IMG/VR virus record: IMGVR_UViG_3300032893_000006
Span: 1 to 64,000 of that record
DNA from: a virus
DNA: 64,000 nucleotides
Reading direction: 5' to 3' (one strand)
Shown here: piece by piece, positions 2,311 to 62,226 of the stretch
Position numbering within the stretch: position 1 is the first letter of the stretch
How the letters are laid out: every line of letters starts with the position of its first letter
The notes under the pieces: model-generated
The model's input: the letters and a program-made list of their open reading frames with translations, nothing else
Database searches by the model: none
What the model was told of the DNA's origin: nothing
Program-made: the position numbers and the translations under genes

Positions 2311-2443
2311 CCACAAAACGTGGTTACTTTTCCAATACCCTGCGCTTGAAATACCTCATTAAATGCGCTTTTTATGAACAATCTTTCGGCTATGATTGCG
2401 GAGTCGGGCTCGCTACCCGATACCACGCCCGTTGAAAAGTTCC

Positions 2444-2466
2444 GGGGCCGGTCACAAACTGGCCCC
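2444..2466 (+). other. Stem-loop in the leader of the HNH/replication operon
   Basis: A 9-bp stem (GGGGCCGGT/ACTGGCCCC, one G-U pair) with a 5-nt loop and no T-tract, about 95 nt before the HNH gene. It is probably a leader RNA structure. The rest of 2311-2561 holds no ORF I can support; a TATGAT hexamer at 2391 could be a -10 box but lacks a good -35. Confidence 0.35.
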
Positions 2467-2561
2467 GCGAAACTTATAGGGTGGGGTAGATCAACGGGCA
2501 CTCTCCCAACGCAAAAAATGGTTCTTGCGCTGATGGGAAAGCTGCGCCTGTAGGGGGAAAA

Positions 2562-2852
2562 ATGGTGCTGCTAAGGCCAGAGTGTGGCCCCGTGTGTTGT
2601 TGGTATTGTGGCATGGTTCTGGACCTGTCGGTTGGCTGTGTTTGTGCGAAGAATCGGTGGACAAGAGATCATCGGATTCCGCGAAGCCGAGGCGGTGAAC
2701 ACCACGCGCGGAATATGGTTCATGCGTGTGTAGTGTGCAATTCCCGCAAAGGCAATCGAACTGTTGAGGAATATAGGGAGTTTATTGAATCCAAAATCCC
2801 TGCGGAATTGAGAGGTAGCACAAGATTCTCTTTCTGGGCGGAGACACCATAA
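2562..2852 (+). CDS. HNH endonuclease, small
   Basis: A 96-residue HNH nuclease. CWYCG near the N terminus and [11 protein letters not shown] near the C terminus form the zinc knuckles, around the core [18 protein letters not shown], where DH is the HNH His position and HARN the N-containing strand. AGGGGGA precedes ATG 2562. The stop overlaps the next ATG by one base, so it is co-transcribed with the replication genes. It may be free-standing or homing-like, or act in DNA processing. Confidence 0.85.
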
Positions 2853-3607
2853 TGGGGAGAATTCGAACTGTGAAACCAGAATTTTTTTCGAGCGAAGATT
2901 TATCTTCTCTCCCTGAGTCCACCCATCTACTCGCGGCGGGACTTCTTTGTTATGCCGACGACGACGGCTACTTCAACGCAAATCCGGGTCTCATTAAAGC
3001 GACAATTTTTCCACTTCGTGAGCCCTCAGTGAGTGTTCCGGAAATGCTCCTGCAACTCGCCAGAATAGACTATGTACTCCTCGGGAAAGGGTCGGATGGT
3101 AAGAGCTATGGAAGGATCACAACCTTCGCCCGACACCAAAGAGTGAGCCATCCAACTCCAAGCAAAATAAGAGGGATGGCGATTGAATGGGATTATTCTC
3201 TGAATACTCATCGAGGACTCATTGAGGGTTCCGTGAATAGTCAGGATATTTTCGTCCCTGAAGGGAAAGGAAAGGAACAGGGAATGGAAGGGAAGGGAGA
3301 GGAGATCACCCCGGGAATGGTCGCGAAAGGGGTGCTTGACGATCTCGCTTTAGCGGGGCGCGATCTTCTCCTGAATTTGGAAAGTGTGGCCGGTGCCGAA
3401 ATGCGTGCTGGCGCGACCGCAGAAAAAACCCGCGATGCGATGATCGCGGCGTGGCGAAAATATGAAAAGGCAAAGCCAAATCTTGAGTATTCAAAAGGGC
3501 CAGCGAAATTTTTTGGAGACGGCGATTGGAGAGACTCTTCGATCTGGCCATACAAAAAGAAAATCAAGGAAGACCCAATGAGCAAGATGAAATTTGTAAA
3601 CAGGTAA
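2852..3607 (+). CDS. Phage replication initiator/organiser-like protein
   Basis: A 251-residue protein beginning [17 protein letters not shown], an N-terminal signature shared by many phage replication proteins with a winged-helix N domain (LLCYADDDGYFNANPGLIK, then TTFARHQRVSHPTPSK). The C-terminal part is basic and likely binds DNA or the helicase. It sits 12 nt before the DnaB-type helicase, so a role in origin recognition or helicase loading is inferred. Confidence 0.7.
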   Translation: MGRIRTVKPEFFSSEDLSSLPESTHLLAAGLLCYADDDGYFNANPGLIKATIFPLREPSVSVPEMLLQLARIDYVLLGKGSDGKSYGRITTFARHQRVSHPTPSKIRGMAIEWDYSLNTHRGLIEGSVNSQDIFVPEGKGKEQGMEGKGEEITPGMVAKGVLDDLALAGRDLLLNLESVAGAEMRAGATAEKTRDAMIAAWRKYEKAKPNLEYSKGPAKFFGDGDWRDSSIWPYKKKIKEDPMSKMKFVNR

Positions 3608-3619
3608 ACGGGGGAAATA

Positions 3620-5068
3620 ATGGCAGACATCGACGACTTCATACTTCCGGACAGTGTGCCGGAGCGCAGAAACGAAAAACAACAAACACAGTCCCTGATG
3701 CTGGCATCTGGACCTCCAGCGAACGTGGATGCGGAGAGAACGATTCTCGGTGCGATTCTTCTGGACAACGAAGCGTACTTAGAAACCTCCGAGACGGTCA
3801 GACCGGACGATTTTTCACTCGATTCCCATCGCCGTATCTTTCTGCGAATGTCGAACCTGATGGATCAGAACCACGTCATCGACATCGTCACACTCGCGAA
3901 CGAACTTTCAAAAAACAAAGAGATCGAGTCGGTCGGTGGTGTCGCTTATCTCGCGTCACTCACCGAAGGTTTGCCACGCCGACCTGTAATAGACGAATAC
4001 ATTCGCATTGTCAAGGACAAATCAACGTTACGCCGGTTGATGGGCCTTGCGAATTCGACGATTGAAAAAGCTGCCGATCAGTCCGAAGATGCGCTGGCAA
4101 TTGCAACGTGGCACGCCGCCGAGCTACAGGAAATCATCGAAGGCGGAGTACATCACGGGCTTGTTCAAGCCTGTGATCTATCGGTCGAGGTTCTCGACCG
4201 ATTCATCGAACAATCAAAACTTCAACAATCTCCGGGGTTCAGCTACGGCATTTCTGACCTCGACGATCAAACCGGTGGTATTCAACCCGGAGAGCAATGC
4301 GTGATCGGTGCGTACTCTAGCGTCGGCAAGACAACGCTCCTCGCGCAGGTCGTCGCCGCCAATTGCCCGAAGGGTCACCCTATGGCACTGTTTCTCTATG
4401 AGCCGACGCGGCACGACTTCCTTCGTAGGCTCTGGTCTATTGTGTCCGGCGTCCGCTACTCTGCCGTGACCAAGCCTTGGACGGCAACCAAGGACGAGAT
4501 CGAAAGGCTCATACGCGCCCAGAGCGAGGTGGCGGAGTGGCCACTTTTCATCAACGACATCAGCAATACCTACCTTGACGAGCAGATTGCGCAGACACGA
4601 ATCGCCATGCATCGCGAGAAGATAGAGCTTACCGCTATCGACTACATCCAGCGGATGAAGATTCGCTCGACCGATAAGTTTGAAGACACAAGGCTCAAGA
4701 TCGGCAGAGCCAGCACCGAGAACGCGAACTTAGTAAAGAACACAAAAAATCGCACAGTGATTCTATCGCAACTGCGTCGCAGCAATCTTGAAGCGGTGCC
4801 GACCATGGACCTTCTGCGCGAGAGCGGACAGATCGAAAACGACGCGGCAACCGTCGTACTACTGCACCTGAAGTTCGATGCAGAGCAGGGCCACTTCACA
4901 AACGAAGGCGCTGCAATCGTCGCCAAGCAGCGGTTCGGAATTCCATGTAACGTTAGTCTTGTGAAAGACCCGCAGACGGCTCTCTGGTGCGCTCCAAAAA
5001 CAAGCTCGACAACATCATCAGAGGGCCTCGGCTACAAGCGGTACGATGACGACGAAGACGCAGCGTAG
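3620..5068 (+). CDS. dnaB: DnaB-type replicative DNA helicase
   Basis: A 482-residue hexameric helicase of the RecA-fold DnaB family. The N-terminal domain (about 35-165) has the DnaB pattern DAERTILGAILLDN..DFSLDSHRRIF. The Walker A motif GAYSSVGKT is at residues 230-238 and Walker B LTAID at 337-341, followed by YIQRM. A later LSQLRRSNLE segment and RFGIPCNVSLVK near the end also fit. It should unwind the phage replication fork. It is preceded by the initiator-like gene and ends 8 nt before a zinc-finger gene. No primase is recognisable in this window. Confidence 0.93.
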   Translation: MADIDDFILPDSVPERRNEKQQTQSLMLASGPPANVDAERTILGAILLDNEAYLETSETVRPDDFSLDSHRRIFLRMSNLMDQNHVIDIVTLANELSKNKEIESVGGVAYLASLTEGLPRRPVIDEYIRIVKDKSTLRRLMGLANSTIEKAADQSEDALAIATWHAAELQEIIEGGVHHGLVQACDLSVEVLDRFIEQSKLQQSPGFSYGISDLDDQTGGIQPGEQCVIGAYSSVGKTTLLAQVVAANCPKGHPMALFLYEPTRHDFLRRLWSIVSGVRYSAVTKPWTATKDEIERLIRAQSEVAEWPLFINDISNTYLDEQIAQTRIAMHREKIELTAIDYIQRMKIRSTDKFEDTRLKIGRASTENANLVKNTKNRTVILSQLRRSNLEAVPTMDLLRESGQIENDAATVVLLHLKFDAEQGHFTNEGAAIVAKQRFGIPCNVSLVKDPQTALWCAPKTSSTTSSEGLGYKRYDDDEDAA

Positions 5069-56179: not shown

Positions 56180-56316
56180 ATAATTCCGAGCGCGGATGGC
56201 ATGTTCTCTTCACAGCCAGCGCCACGTGACAAGCAAGCTGGCTGACGGAGGCAGCTATTTATTCCCCAAAAATCGTACAGGCAAATCTCGACGCTTTCGC
56301 GGCCAAAAATAAGTGG

Positions 56317-59300
56317 ATGCCTATTCCACACTCGCAAGATGAGATCGACGACTTCAAAGAAGTAATTGCAAAAATCGTCGACATCGAAGAGACTAGCCGA
56401 TCCGCCTCTGTATCTCTTAAAGGCCCAATCAGTTCGAACGTCGCGACGGAGATCAGGCAGTTCATTCAAAACGAACAAGTCTTATGCGCCCTCGATAACA
56501 GCTATTGGGAGGCGCGCTACGCATACGTGTGTAACGAGAAGGGAGAGATTTCAAAATTTAGGAACAGAAAATCTCAGGAAGTCTTCGATCAAATTGTCGG
56601 CGACTTCGACGAGCGTCAGGTCTCAATTGAGGTTCTTTGCCTCGATCCGAACGCTAAGATACTGACTGCTGACCTCAAGTGGAAACGCCTCGATGACATT
56701 CAAATCGGCGAAGAACTGGTAGCTGTCGATGAAGGGCAAAGCATGAACGAGAGACGTGCTGAAGCAGCAAAGCGACAGCGCGAATTGAGGAGCGGCGTTC
56801 ACAGAGGAAAATCGACAAAACGCTTGCGTAAAGAACGTAAAATGCGAACGACTATTGTCGAAAATAAATGGGAATCTTGCAAAGAAGCATTGAAGTTTAC
56901 GTTTGAAGATGGGAGAACTTTAATCTGCTCGGCGGATCACCAGTGGTTGTGCAAGCAGCGCGGAGGATGCGAACCTATATGGCAAAAATCTGAAGAAATG
57001 CGGGTGGGAGATCAGGCCAGATATATAACGAAGCCGTGGAATGAGCAGACAACCGCTGATGCATGGATGGGGGGAATCATCGATGGAGAAGGATCGCTCG
57101 ACAGTGGATGTGGCATCGAAATAAATATCACTCAGGTGTTCAATGTAGTTTTCGACCGCGTAAAGGAATATCTTTCGATCTCCGGATATAACTTCCAACA
57201 GGGAATCGACAAAAGACAGCCGTCTAAGGATGGCAGGGGAAAACTGGGATCAAAGGACGTCGGGAGGTTATACGTTTCGCGGATGGATGAAGCATTTCGG
57301 ATCATCGGCCAGACGAGGCCATTCCGTTTTATCTCTAAAAAATGGTGGGAAGGGAAAAGTCTTCCCGGAAAGAAGACAGGAATTGGCTGGTCACGGATTG
57401 TAAAGATTGAAATCCTTCCAAAACAGCGCATGATTGACATCCAAACTTCGACAAGGACATTCATCGCGGAGGGTTTTGTATCTCACAATTGTCTTAAAGG
57501 TCGGCAGGTCGGAATCACGACCAAGACCGCCTTGAAGTTCATGCACCGTCTGATGTTCATCCCCCACACACAGGCTGTTATGGCTTCGGTACAAGCTGAG
57601 AAGTCGGAACTCATTGGCCGAATTCTGGACATTGCATATACCAAGTCGCCATGGTGGCTAGTGCCGATGCGCGGCTCCAAGGGACGGTTCGACAATGGCT
57701 CCGTCTTATCCATCCAGTCAGGTATGCAGGCGACCGGTATTGCTCAGGGATGGACGCCGACTTGCCTTCCGTACTTCTCAAAAATCCGAATGGCAAACGG
57801 ATTCCTCAAGGCGATTAGTGAAGTTAGTGTAGGTGAAAGAGTTCTCACACATCAAGGTAAAATCGCAACTGTAAAAAAGGCTTTCGAAACAAAACCTTTT
57901 GCGCAAACGAAAGTTTTACGACTATGGGGACACTATTCACCACTCGAATGCACAATCGAACACCGCGTCTCGACGCCGGATGGTTTTGTTGAGGCCGACC
58001 AGATTTCAGTGGGAGACTATGTATGCCATCCGCTGCGAGAGATTAAACACTCTCTCCTCAAGGCTCAGTTTACGCACTTCAGTCGTGGCAAGATCGCAGC
58101 AAACAAGGCGCATAATTTCGATGCTCCGTTCGATCTTCCATTTGGGTATTTGTGTGGCCTGTACCTCGCTGAAGGCAGCTTGCATAAGAGTGGAATTGGG
58201 AAGAAAAAGCCGTATCTGTCAGAAGTAATTTTTACGGTACATGAAAGAGAAGCAGAGGACCGTGTTCAGATGTTGCGTCGATTTCTCGGGAAGGAGCAGC
58301 ATATAAAAGTTAAGAAACACAACGAGCATGGCGCGCAGATTAAAATTTCAGCGGCTTGGCTGGCGCGGTGGATATCGGAAAATTTTGGAGAGAAAACAAA
58401 CAAGCAAATTCCAGACTGGATTTGGGATGCTGGCGAAGAATTTTGCAGGGGAATACTCTATGGATATTTAGATGGAGATGGCCATTGCGATACCAGCAGC
58501 AATAATGTGGTAGCTCCGACAATATGTTCGCAGATCGCTTATCAGATGCGCGACTTGGTCGCATCTTTGAAATACGGTTGGGCATCGATTTATTTCGTTG
58601 ACGAACATAGGCAAGGTTCCATGAAAAAGCGTCCAGTTTGGCGGCTGGTGTTGAGTGGCCCCGTTGGTGCGGGATATCGTCGGGATCGCGGACTGCCGTT
58701 CAGAAAACCGATGAAACATGCTCGCCATTGGCGCTATGGAGTCGACGGCAAAACAGTCGATGTGATGATTGAAAGCATTTCCCATAACTCGTCTGCTAGC
58801 CTTTGGGATTTGGAGGTTGATAGCGAAGACCATTCGTTCACTACAGATCAGTGTGCGGTACACAATTGCGTGCACATCTCCGAGCTTGCCGACATTCCAA
58901 AGCCAGAGAAGGTCATTGAAGAAGGTCTGCTCCGCGCCACCCACTCGTCTCGAAATCTATTCCTTGTTCTCGAAGGAACTGGCGGCGGCAATACAGGATG
59001 GCTTGCGGAGACTTGGCGTAACGCCAAGCGCGATTATCCACTCGGCAAGCACCGTCTCTGCCCGATCTTTCTGCCGTGGTTTACTGCCACCGATCTCTAT
59101 CCGGAAGCGGATTGGATTCGTAAATTCCCGATCCCCGGAAACTTCATGCGCGAGCGTCTCGATGCCACAGTCAAGCACGTCGCTCGGTGCGAGGCATTCG
59201 TCCGCAACACGCCGTACATGCGCAAGGTTTATGGTGCAGGATGGACGATGCCAATCGACCAGCAGTGGTTCTATGACTTCAATTATCGGCAGGCAGTCAA

Positions 59301-60384
59301 CAACCGCACACAGAGAGTGTGGATGGCGCAGATGCCTGCTGACGACTTCGAGGCGTTGACAGGAAAGCATGACTCCGTCTTCGAAGCGGATGTCATCGAG
59401 GACCTTGAGAGCAATATCTATGAGATCATCACGAATCGCGCTACAGGAGAAGAGACAAAGCTGCGCAAGCAGCCGGTGGATGCGTATGCGATCACCGGCC
59501 ACGATGTCGACCCGTCGTTTTACCCGAGCAAGGACCAGATCGATTTTAGCAAGCCGCCAATCAACGTTTATTGGAATTCGAGCCGAGGCCAAGAGTACGA
59601 GTGGCAGATGGTCCCTCTGATTTGGCTTCCCGAAGAAAACGAAGAAAACACGATGGATCGTCTTCTGATTTTTGAACACCCAGCCAAATGGAACGAGTAC
59701 ACTCTTGGTATCGATACAGCGGATGGTCTAGGCAAAGAAGACGAAGAAAGGACTGTGCTTTCGCTGGCGAAAAATCGCTATCATGGCGGCTACGATGAAC
59801 AGGTAGCCGAATTCACCTCGAACAGAGTTAATGCGGCGCAGGCTGTAGCATTCGCCGCCTGCATTGGAGCGTACTGGAGCCCTTGCGTTCAAGATAGTCG
59901 TGGCATCATGTATGCTATCGAACAGATTGGAAGGCCGGGAGAGACATGTCAGCACCAGCTAAAAATGATGGGATTTCATCGTCATTACCGTCCCAAAAGG
60001 TTCGATTCAAAAAAAATCAAAGATGAATTAGGAAAGAAAGAAGGATGGTGGTCAAGCGCTTGGGCAGTACCGATCCTGATGACGCGGTACGTTGAGGCGA
60101 TCAATGGGGGATGGTACGTTCCTCGTTCGCGTTGGCTGATTGAGGAATTGAAGACGTTGGAGCGCCGTCAAGCGGCAGGAAAGTCGAAGATGGTGCACAG
60201 AAGCGGCCAATTCGATGACAGAGTTCGAGCGTCGGCACAGTCGTTTTTCTGCGCGCACGACCTCGATGTTCTCGCAGACCGCGCCCAAAAGAGAAGAGTC
60301 GTGCCAAAGCAAATGAACGAACCTACGCCAATGCGGCGAGCGGGGCAAGTCTCAGTGAGCGACGGCGATGACGATTGGGGATAA
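56317..60384 (+). CDS. terL: Large terminase subunit containing two inteins
   Basis: 1355 residues as translated from ATG 56317, about 703 after removal of two inteins. Exteins carry Walker A as CLKGRQVGITTKT (directly after intein 1), a Walker B-like region CVHISELADI (directly after intein 2), and a C-terminal RNase H-like nuclease (GIDTADGLGKEDEE, YAIEQIGRPGE, DDRVRASAQS). It should package phage DNA. The frame continues upstream to ATT 56257, which sits 5-6 nt after ACGGAGG; a start there adds YSPKIVQANLDAFAAKNKW. No ATG has a comparable ribosome-binding site. Confidence 0.92.
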   Translation: MPIPHSQDEIDDFKEVIAKIVDIEETSRSASVSLKGPISSNVATEIRQFIQNEQVLCALDNSYWEARYAYVCNEKGEISKFRNRKSQEVFDQIVGDFDERQVSIEVLCLDPNAKILTADLKWKRLDDIQIGEELVAVDEGQSMNERRAEAAKRQRELRSGVHRGKSTKRLRKERKMRTTIVENKWESCKEALKFTFEDGRTLICSADHQWLCKQRGGCEPIWQKSEEMRVGDQARYITKPWNEQTTADAWMGGIIDGEGSLDSGCGIEINITQVFNVVFDRVKEYLSISGYNFQQGIDKRQPSKDGRGKLGSKDVGRLYVSRMDEAFRIIGQTRPFRFISKKWWEGKSLPGKKTGIGWSRIVKIEILPKQRMIDIQTSTRTFIAEGFVSHNCLKGRQVGITTKTALKFMHRLMFIPHTQAVMASVQAEKSELIGRILDIAYTKSPWWLVPMRGSKGRFDNGSVLSIQSGMQATGIAQGWTPTCLPYFSKIRMANGFLKAISEVSVGERVLTHQGKIATVKKAFETKPFAQTKVLRLWGHYSPLECTIEHRVSTPDGFVEADQISVGDYVCHPLREIKHSLLKAQFTHFSRGKIAANKAHNFDAPFDLPFGYLCGLYLAEGSLHKSGIGKKKPYLSEVIFTVHEREAEDRVQMLRRFLGKEQHIKVKKHNEHGAQIKISAAWLARWISENFGEKTNKQIPDWIWDAGEEFCRGILYGYLDGDGHCDTSSNNVVAPTICSQIAYQMRDLVASLKYGWASIYFVDEHRQGSMKKRPVWRLVLSGPVGAGYRRDRGLPFRKPMKHARHWRYGVDGKTVDVMIESISHNSSASLWDLEVDSEDHSFTTDQCAVHNCVHISELADIPKPEKVIEEGLLRATHSSRNLFLVLEGTGGGNTGWLAETWRNAKRDYPLGKHRLCPIFLPWFTATDLYPEADWIRKFPIPGNFMRERLDATVKHVARCEAFVRNTPYMRKVYGAGWTMPIDQQWFYDFNYRQAVNNRTQRVWMAQMPADDFEALTGKHDSVFEADVIEDLESNIYEIITNRATGEETKLRKQPVDAYAITGHDVDPSFYPSKDQIDFSKPPINVYWNSSRGQEYEWQMVPLIWLPEENEENTMDRLLIFEHPAKWNEYTLGIDTADGLGKEDEERTVLSLAKNRYHGGYDEQVAEFTSNRVNAAQAVAFAACIGAYWSPCVQDSRGIMYAIEQIGRPGETCQHQLKMMGFHRHYRPKRFDSKKIKDELGKKEGWWSSAWAVPILMTRYVEAINGGWYVPRSRWLIEELKTLERRQAAGKSKMVHRSGQFDDRVRASAQSFFCAHDLDVLADRAQKRRVVPKQMNEPTPMRRAGQVSVSDGDDDWG
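56638..57489 (+). other. Intein 1 in terL (LAGLIDADG type)
   Basis: 284 residues. It starts at Cys (CLDPNAKIL), has block B-like SADHQWL, a LAGLIDADG-type motif GGIIDGEGSLD, and ends with block G FVSHN followed by Cys at 57490. It is inserted immediately before the terminase Walker A motif. Confidence 0.9.
57763..58866 (+). other. Intein 2 in terL (LAGLIDADG type)
   Basis: 368 residues. It starts at Cys (CLPYFSKIRMANGFLKAI), has IEHRVSTPDG as block B, two LAGLIDADG-type motifs (LCGLYLAEGSLH, ILYGYLDGDGHC), and ends with AVHN before Cys at 58867. It is inserted just before the Walker B-like region. Confidence 0.9.
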
Positions 60385-60402: not shown

Positions 60403-60804
60403 ATGTCGAGAAATGCATATTTGACGACTCCGGTCGTGTTCTGGCTCGATACGTTGAATGGTACCGTCAAGATGGGGCTACCGGAACAGTATGAAGCACC
60501 GCCATTTCATGAAAAAATCGTCTGTAACACTGTGTGGGACGTCGAGAGATGGTCGCAAAAGATGCGCGAGCAGGATCGCATTCGGCAACAGATGGAAGAC
60601 GATAAACGTGGCGCTGAAGAAGAGCGCATCCGTGGCGAGATTCGTAGCCACATCCACCACCTGATCGCAAATTCCAAAAACAATCTCAATCGAGATTTTC
60701 TCAAAAAATACCTTGAAAAATCCGACAAACTGCCGAACGATCCGACGCGATGGAATCGCGAAAGCTATCTCCACATTGAAGGTTACGAGAAAAACCATGG
60801 ATAA
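60403..60804 (+). CDS. Unknown protein after the terminase
   Basis: 133 residues. N-terminal beta-rich part (YLTTPVVFWLDTLNGTVKMG) and a long charged helix (KMREQDRIRQQMEDDKRGAEEERIR). Unknown; possibly head-related from position only. Confidence 0.5.
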   Translation: MSRNAYLTTPVVFWLDTLNGTVKMGLPEQYEAPPFHEKIVCNTVWDVERWSQKMREQDRIRQQMEDDKRGAEEERIRGEIRSHIHHLIANSKNNLNRDFLKKYLEKSDKLPNDPTRWNRESYLHIEGYEKNHG

Positions 60805-61390
60805 GATTAAGAGCGAAAATGCTAGACGCCAATGGGCTGCACGTAGGAAAGAACGTAGTAGCCACTGGCAAATAGAAGATGGCACAGTTCATATCTCAAT
60901 GACCAGAGGCTTAGAAGCCTTGATTGATTTTGACGATTTCGAACGTGTTCGGCTTTATACATGGGTTCCACGTTTTTCGCACACGCGAAAATCCGACGGT
61001 GTATCGGTCTATTACGCAGAGGCTGTGGTCCCAAACGAAACCGGAACTGAGAAGATATTTCTTCATAATCTAGTCATGCCGCCCACAGATGGAATGCGCG
61101 TGGATCACCGAGATCGTGATGGCTTAAATTGCAGAAAAGGCAATCTTCGTTTTGGAACAGAATCTCAAAATTCTGCAAATAAATCATCAGTGCGGACTAT
61201 TCGAAAATATAGAGGTGTTGTTAAGGACAACACCTCTAAGAATTGGATCGCGAAGATCATGGTCAATGGCAAATATATTTGCAAGTGCGGATTACCTACA
61301 GCAGAAGCCGCTGCTCGTGCCTACAATGATCTCGCGCTCTCCCACTTTGGAGAATTTGCCATGCTGAATACATTTTCGGGGGTCGTGTAG
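60797..61390 (+). CDS. HNH homing endonuclease with AP2 domain
   Basis: 197 residues from ATG 60797. HNH core KIFLHNLVMPPTDGMRVDHRDRDGLNCRKGNLRF and an AP2 domain (YRGVVKDNTSKNWIAKIM..EAAARAYNDLALSHFGEFA). Second such gene in the window, placed between head-region genes. Confidence 0.88.
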   Translation: MDKIKSENARRQWAARRKERSSHWQIEDGTVHISMTRGLEALIDFDDFERVRLYTWVPRFSHTRKSDGVSVYYAEAVVPNETGTEKIFLHNLVMPPTDGMRVDHRDRDGLNCRKGNLRFGTESQNSANKSSVRTIRKYRGVVKDNTSKNWIAKIMVNGKYICKCGLPTAEAAARAYNDLALSHFGEFAMLNTFSGVV

Positions 61391-62203: not shown

Positions 62204-62226
62204 TGTAAAGTGACTGAGAATACGTC

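Follow-up and report, generated by a model that had tools for sequence, protein, structure and literature searches.

Inteins are already known from the large terminase (TerL) of mycobacteriophages, for which one survey distinguishes the types TerL1-a to -e, TerL6-f and Pham3880-g, and reports fast splicing of the Pham3880-g terminase intein in E. coli (Kelley et al., 2016; PMC5050341). In haloarchaea, the co-homing of inteins MCM-a and MCM-d into an empty allele was found to be inefficient (PMC10643990), and the movement of inteins to new sites has been held to be very rare, flanking homology being absent (PMC1635734). Terminase inteins located at either the P-loop or Walker B (PMC5050341), terminases with two inteins (PMC7156551, PMC7886860) and inteins at neighbouring sites of an ATPase (PMC10643990) are all published.

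The gene described here lies in a stretch of 64,000 nucleotides (the window), positions 1 to 64,000 of the 134,337-base record IMGVR_UViG_3300032893_000006. It is identified from its sequence as the gene for TerL, the genome-packaging motor, of an uncultured tailed phage. This gene has very probably been invaded independently by two unrelated self-splicing, homing inteins.

The terL gene and its relatives

The open reading frame at 56317..60384 (plus strand) encodes 1355 amino acids (aa) from its first ATG, with its sole stop at the end. The start codon is probably an ATT at 56257, 20 codons 5' of that ATG. GGAGG is found five bases upstream of it, and at the aligned start position of the family relatives use ATG (36), TTG or GTG, with ATC in L004, L035 and L074 (L numbers are handles for other loci). 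If used, this start would give a precursor of 1375 aa and a spliced protein of 723 aa. The gene is laid out as follows.

56257 to 60384, plus strand: terL with both inteins, likely ATT start, precursor of 1375 aa
56257 to 56637, plus strand: N-extein, start of the ATPase domain, C-terminal letters ..QVSIEVL
57490 to 57762, plus strand: middle extein, 91 aa, first residue the +1 Cys
57496 to 57522, plus strand: deviant Walker A, K-G-R-Q-V-G-I-T-T, within the middle extein
58867 to 60384, plus strand: C-extein with +1 Cys, Walker B, remaining ATPase and nuclease half
58870 to 58884, plus strand: Walker B, VHISE, within the C-extein

In spliced numbering, Walker A starts at K110, the Lys at the motif start being the deviant form, and Walker B is V-H-I-S203-E204. 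Residues K110, R112, Q113, G115, T118, S203 and E204 are invariant in the extein alignment, so both Walker motifs are conserved once the protein is spliced. The spliced protein matched the terminase large subunit families PHROG 5989 (1.7e-9, against a weaker 1.1e-6 for the precursor) and PHROG 2 (4.8e-7). A Pfam search of the spliced protein returned no TerL family match, and comparison of its profile with solved structures, by sequence, gave nothing recognisable. Among cultured phages, Tunturiibacter phage Tunturi_1 is the nearest: its TerL shares 28% identity over 90% (E 8e-73), and its portal protein is matched by an ORF that follows in the window, at 62218. The host of Tunturi_1 is an acidobacterium. 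A separate gene just 3' of terL (60713..61390) encodes a free-standing HNH endonuclease (Pfam HNH_3, PHROG 99).

Boundaries of the inteins

The preliminary description had placed two inteins in this terminase, with joined exteins of 703 aa. Its coordinates were exact to the base, and the joined exteins, read from the ATG at 56317, are indeed 703 aa long. Both inteins have the Cys start, the HN end and the +1 Cys ascribed to them (a caret marks the point of insertion).

56638 to 57489, plus strand: intein 1, 284 aa, CLDPNAK..FVSHN, precursor residues 108-391, site s3
57763 to 58866, plus strand: intein 2, 368 aa, CLPYFSK..CAVHN, precursor residues 483-850, site s5 (WTPT^C199 VHISE)

The claim withstood the test of refutation set for it beforehand, because the joined exteins aligned with intein-free TerLs of related uncultured phages (seven TerLs, 51-66% identity), and both junctions were free of gaps. 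In a search covering all C/S/A...N|C/S/T boundary pairs, for which the references included the window's own joined protein, the reported boundaries won clearly (140 vs 64 and 154 vs 71); the same test also placed the sites of the relatives. Matches were obtained to Pfam Intein_splicing (1e-9) and LAGLIDADG_3 (2e-7), and to two copies of the NCBIfam intein C-terminal region with a score above the family cut-off. A tblastn search of the rest of the virus record found no third intein copy. A scan of the whole record with the Pfam intein profile was not used as evidence, since it missed even the known inteins.

An assembly or frameshift artefact is ruled out by the single open frame and the conserved residues on both sides, and a group I intron by the inserts being in frame and protein-like.

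The inteins had also been said to interrupt Walker A and Walker B precisely. They do adjoin these motifs, but neither motif is cut and the insertion points flank them: intein 1 is inserted before C108, two residues ahead of the Walker A Lys, and intein 2 before C199, four residues ahead of the Walker B Ser-Glu.

Splicing and endonuclease features

With Cys1, a block B His, a terminal HN and a +1 Cys, both inteins look like class-1 inteins by sequence. Block B is SADH in intein 1 (98-101) and TIEH in intein 2 (64-67). The block F His is present in intein 2, while intein 1 has Arg at that place, a position occupied by His, Lys or Gly in its relatives. A Hint fold is predicted for both. The predicted structure of intein 2 (pLDDT 88) consists of a Hint domain and a two-motif LAGLIDADG endonuclease, and Foldseek matched it to the whole intein-endonucleases TliVMA, PI-PfuI and PI-SceI with E values down to 2e-15 (2e-15 to 8e-14 for TliVMA/PI-PfuI). 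For intein 1 the Hint part was predicted confidently and the endonuclease part poorly (pLDDT below 50), and its splicing half matched the Hint domains of the gp41-1, RecA and DnaB inteins. The LAGLIDADG motifs claimed for both inteins were found, two of them intact in intein 2 and one in intein 1.

57073 to 57093, plus strand: LAGLIDADG-type motif GIIDGEG, the sole clear motif of intein 1
58156 to 58176, plus strand: first LAGLIDADG motif of intein 2, GLYLAEG
58462 to 58482, plus strand: second LAGLIDADG motif of intein 2, GYLDGDG

The catalytic acids are invariant in both intein families, which extend far beyond this phage. The two inteins share no meaningful similarity and therefore represent two separate acquisitions. 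Purifying selection was seen on inteins where it could be measured (L105/L106, dN 0.18 vs dS 3.9; L093/L104, dN 0.12 vs dS 1.5), dS being saturated for pairs involving the window's own inteins. The best isolate match of intein 1 was LinStu gp250, a mycobacteriophage C1 terminase intein (E 5e-20), which, as we read its annotation and cluster, belongs to the same protein group as Pham3880-g.

The translated precursor would fold two Hint domains, and each intein would excise by the class-1 pathway, with an acyl shift at Cys1, attack by the +1 Cys and cyclisation of the Asn. Excision would join the exteins and restore the ATPase core, intein 1 lying beside Walker A and intein 2 in the Walker B strand, and the unspliced precursor may reasonably be expected to have no ATPase activity. 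At the DNA level, the inteins would persist by homing, in which the LAGLIDADG domain cuts the intein-free terL of co-infecting phages and repair of the cut allele copies the intein in. Empty alleles do occur among the relatives, and homing itself is predicted. We infer that both inteins splice, to which the continuity of the exteins lends indirect support, and that the endonucleases are active, more tentatively so for intein 1.

It is conceivable, if rather unlikely, that one or both inteins have lost mobility while keeping splicing and vertical inheritance, or that one is splice-dead and the gene a dead allele. The single motif and poorly predicted endonuclease part of intein 1 point in this direction, but the D and E of that motif are invariant in all nine aligned inteins, at identities as low as 24%, and LAGLIDADG enzymes with one motif can work as dimers. 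Between the window and its closest relative TerL, L004, which has intein 1 only, identity is 67% for intein 1 and 76% for the extein, as would be expected without recent homing; the frame of the window gene is nevertheless open through all five segments.

Intein sites in the TerL family

The family was sampled as 59 TerLs from viral contigs with duplicates removed, 44 of them intein-free and 15 intein-bearing; a search of bacterial and archaeal genomes for the window's TerL family found none. Six intein sites occur across the family, every one in the ATPase half, and at least three intein lineages lie behind them.

s1, before C57: L014, L058, L094
s2, before C72: L001, L017, L056
s3, before C108: window, L004, also the cousin L175
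s4, before residue 117, inside Walker A: L106
s5, before C199: window, L001, L002, L093, L104; mini-intein in L102
s6, before S203: L003, L105, L106

Double inteins, described earlier as rare, are uncommon here (three of the 59 TerLs), with site pairs that all differ (window s3+s5, L001 s2+s5, L106 s4+s6). They are not unique, as there are terminases with apparently three or four inteins and two-intein TerLs have been published. With three observed among 59 TerLs, doubles were not shown to be commoner than chance (Fisher p 0.13). In L004, the residue at the intein 2 site is Ala.

The exteins of L045, L102, L104 and L105 are 94-99% identical, yet all four differ in intein state: L045 is empty, L102 has a 134-aa mini-intein, L104 is full at s5 and L105 is full at s6. 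The intein state therefore turns over quickly. The mini-intein of L102 (5095..5496) lies at s5 and has no endonuclease. The TerL of L102 is 98.9% identical to that of L104, whose intein at the same site is full-length but diverged.

A number of other arrangements were observed. L180 (69..5114) encodes a 1682-aa TerL with apparently four inteins. One lies in Walker A and one at Walker B; the other two, read by eye and from profile hits, lie at the C-motif (^TPRGQGN) and downstream of it (^SREEIEI). L251 (3..4154) encodes a GpA-type terminase with apparently three. Short TerL paralogues of about 420 aa, corresponding to the N-terminal half, are found beside terL in L006 (8066..9322), L007 (147..1445) and L086 (2814..4106), with similar ones in L008 and L038. 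In these the Walker A Lys and the Walker B Ser-Glu are altered and the nuclease half is absent; the window's virus record has no such paralogue. The TerL ORF of L016 is split in two near its C-terminal end (2441..4381 and 4406..4708), perhaps through a frameshift, an intron or a sequencing error.

Probable shifts of the insertion sites

The relatives of intein 1 are TerL inteins (best 80 of 270 loci), with full-length identities of about 37-67% to about 60 distinct loci. The usual site of this family is inside Walker A (Gx^[ST]) and was used in 72 of the 75 distinct contexts scanned; in the window, intein 1 lies 9 codons upstream of it, with a +1 Cys. Intein 2 on its own found no relatives in viral contigs, the peptide patterns being too strict, and these were later found by family alignment. 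Among 43 contexts of its family, 30 are ^[ST]E and 9 are ^CxHxSE as in the window, where intein 2 lies 4 codons upstream of the usual Walker B site, also with a +1 Cys. Both usual sites are vacant in the window.

57516 to 57517, plus strand: s4 (Gx^[ST]), where inteins of the intein 1 family usually sit, vacant here, 27 nt 3' of the site used
58878 to 58879, plus strand: s6 (^SE), where inteins of the intein 2 family usually sit, vacant here, 12 nt 3' of the site used

In the trees, the s3 inteins and the s4 intein of L106 form a 100/100 clade nested among P-loop-site inteins. All s5 inteins fall in one clade (support 100), which lies within the Walker-B-site inteins (support 92). Relative to the sites usual in their families, the window inteins thus sit 27 nt (intein 1) and 12 nt (intein 2) upstream. 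Comparison of a single with a double origin of s3 gave an AU p of 0.195. The inteins at s1 and s2 are one lineage at sites 15 codons apart, the support for their split being weak (74/75), and further shifts were found in L193 (6 codons) and L247 (1 codon). The Walker A and Walker B families have Ser or Thr as +1 residue at the usual sites and Cys at the shifted ones, a pattern that is partly expected because only Cys, Ser or Thr can serve as the +1 residue. Intein-free TerLs have Cys at s1, s2, s3 and s5 in 95%, 84%, 7% and 52% of cases, respectively, so a Cys was available at these sites before insertion.

We lean towards the view that TerL inteins relocate repeatedly within the gene, by 1 to 15 codons, onto Cys codons, and that this phage carries two inteins relocated independently of each other. 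At the new Cys codon, the extein would supply the splicing nucleophile. Such short shifts keep flanking homology and would thus offer an easy route to new sites, against the opinion that an intein almost never moves to another site. At a guess, the shift proceeds by recombination at a shared TGY codon. An improbable alternative is that the s3 and s5 inteins are fresh invasions by unrelated inteins that have always used these sites, rather than relocated members of the P-loop and Walker B families. Site s3 is common to three TerLs and s5 to nine distinct contexts, both therefore being established sites, and the s5 inteins are a single clade; the nesting of both groups among inteins of the usual sites speaks against this alternative.

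Inteins of the Walker B TerL family were also observed in portal proteins (Pfam Phage_portal_3) of L122 (2825..7612) and L124 (2771..5746), at sites (..C^SELGEVP and ..M^STLGEVP) resembling the TerL site ^SELADIP. Here an intein may have jumped from terL into a second packaging gene that offers a look-alike target.

Significance of the locus

Taken by itself, the window gene is an ordinary, well-preserved intein invasion of a terminase. What is unusual is that both inteins appear to be members of widespread TerL families shifted by a few codons onto Cys codons. Its value lies in the surrounding set, in which near-identical exteins differ in state and empty alleles stand beside a mini-intein, full inteins and doubles. 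With these real alleles it could be tested whether adjacent inteins impede one another's homing in phages, as they do in haloarchaea, and how an intein changes its insertion site.

It is most improbable that the double insertion is a regulatory device, with conditional splicing gating packaging until late infection, even though ATPase motifs are where inteins concentrate in many hosts and a regulatory role of TerL inteins has been suggested (PMC7156551, PMC5050341), since an intein-free majority (44 of 59 relatives) and the turnover of states among near-identical TerLs fit a parasite better than a fixed regulator, and TerL inteins tested in other systems spliced quickly.

Comparison with known systems

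In the open-access full texts, no description was found of these exact two sites, of their pairing or of recurrent short shifts. The mycobacteriophage TerL inteins (PMC5050341) resemble those of the window in being confined to the ATPase half and in their LAGLIDADG mobility. Of their sites, a and b fall within the P-loop, whereas intein 1 of the window lies nine residues upstream; site e is at Walker B, and there are others. Intein 1 is homologous in sequence to the Pham3880-g type (LinStu gp250), although at an identity of only about 25%. The hosts in that study are mycobacteria, and the part available makes no mention of a two-intein TerL.

The TerL of Microcystis phage Mic1 likewise has two inteins, the larger with an endonuclease domain, but at different sites, in the C-motif (TG^C..N^TPKGYG) and in the nuclease half (DHL^C..SN^CDALRY) (PMC7156551). 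The Mic1 inteins match the family of intein 2 alone, and weakly. Two inteins are also found in the TerL of the crAss-like Delta phage OBYQ01000140; these are described as being of the Hint-Hop type in a TAG-recoded gene (PMC7886860). The TerLs of L106, L107 and L178 (IMG/VR, same family) likewise carry two inteins, homologues of intein 1 (55%) and of intein 2 (33%). Unlike those of the window, they occupy the usual sites, GM^ST of Walker A and V^SE of Walker B, and so lie within both motifs. As in the window, the haloarchaeal MCM-a and MCM-d are mobile inteins that occupy neighbouring positions in a single ATPase gene, there an archaeal helicase in place of a phage TerL (PMC10643990).
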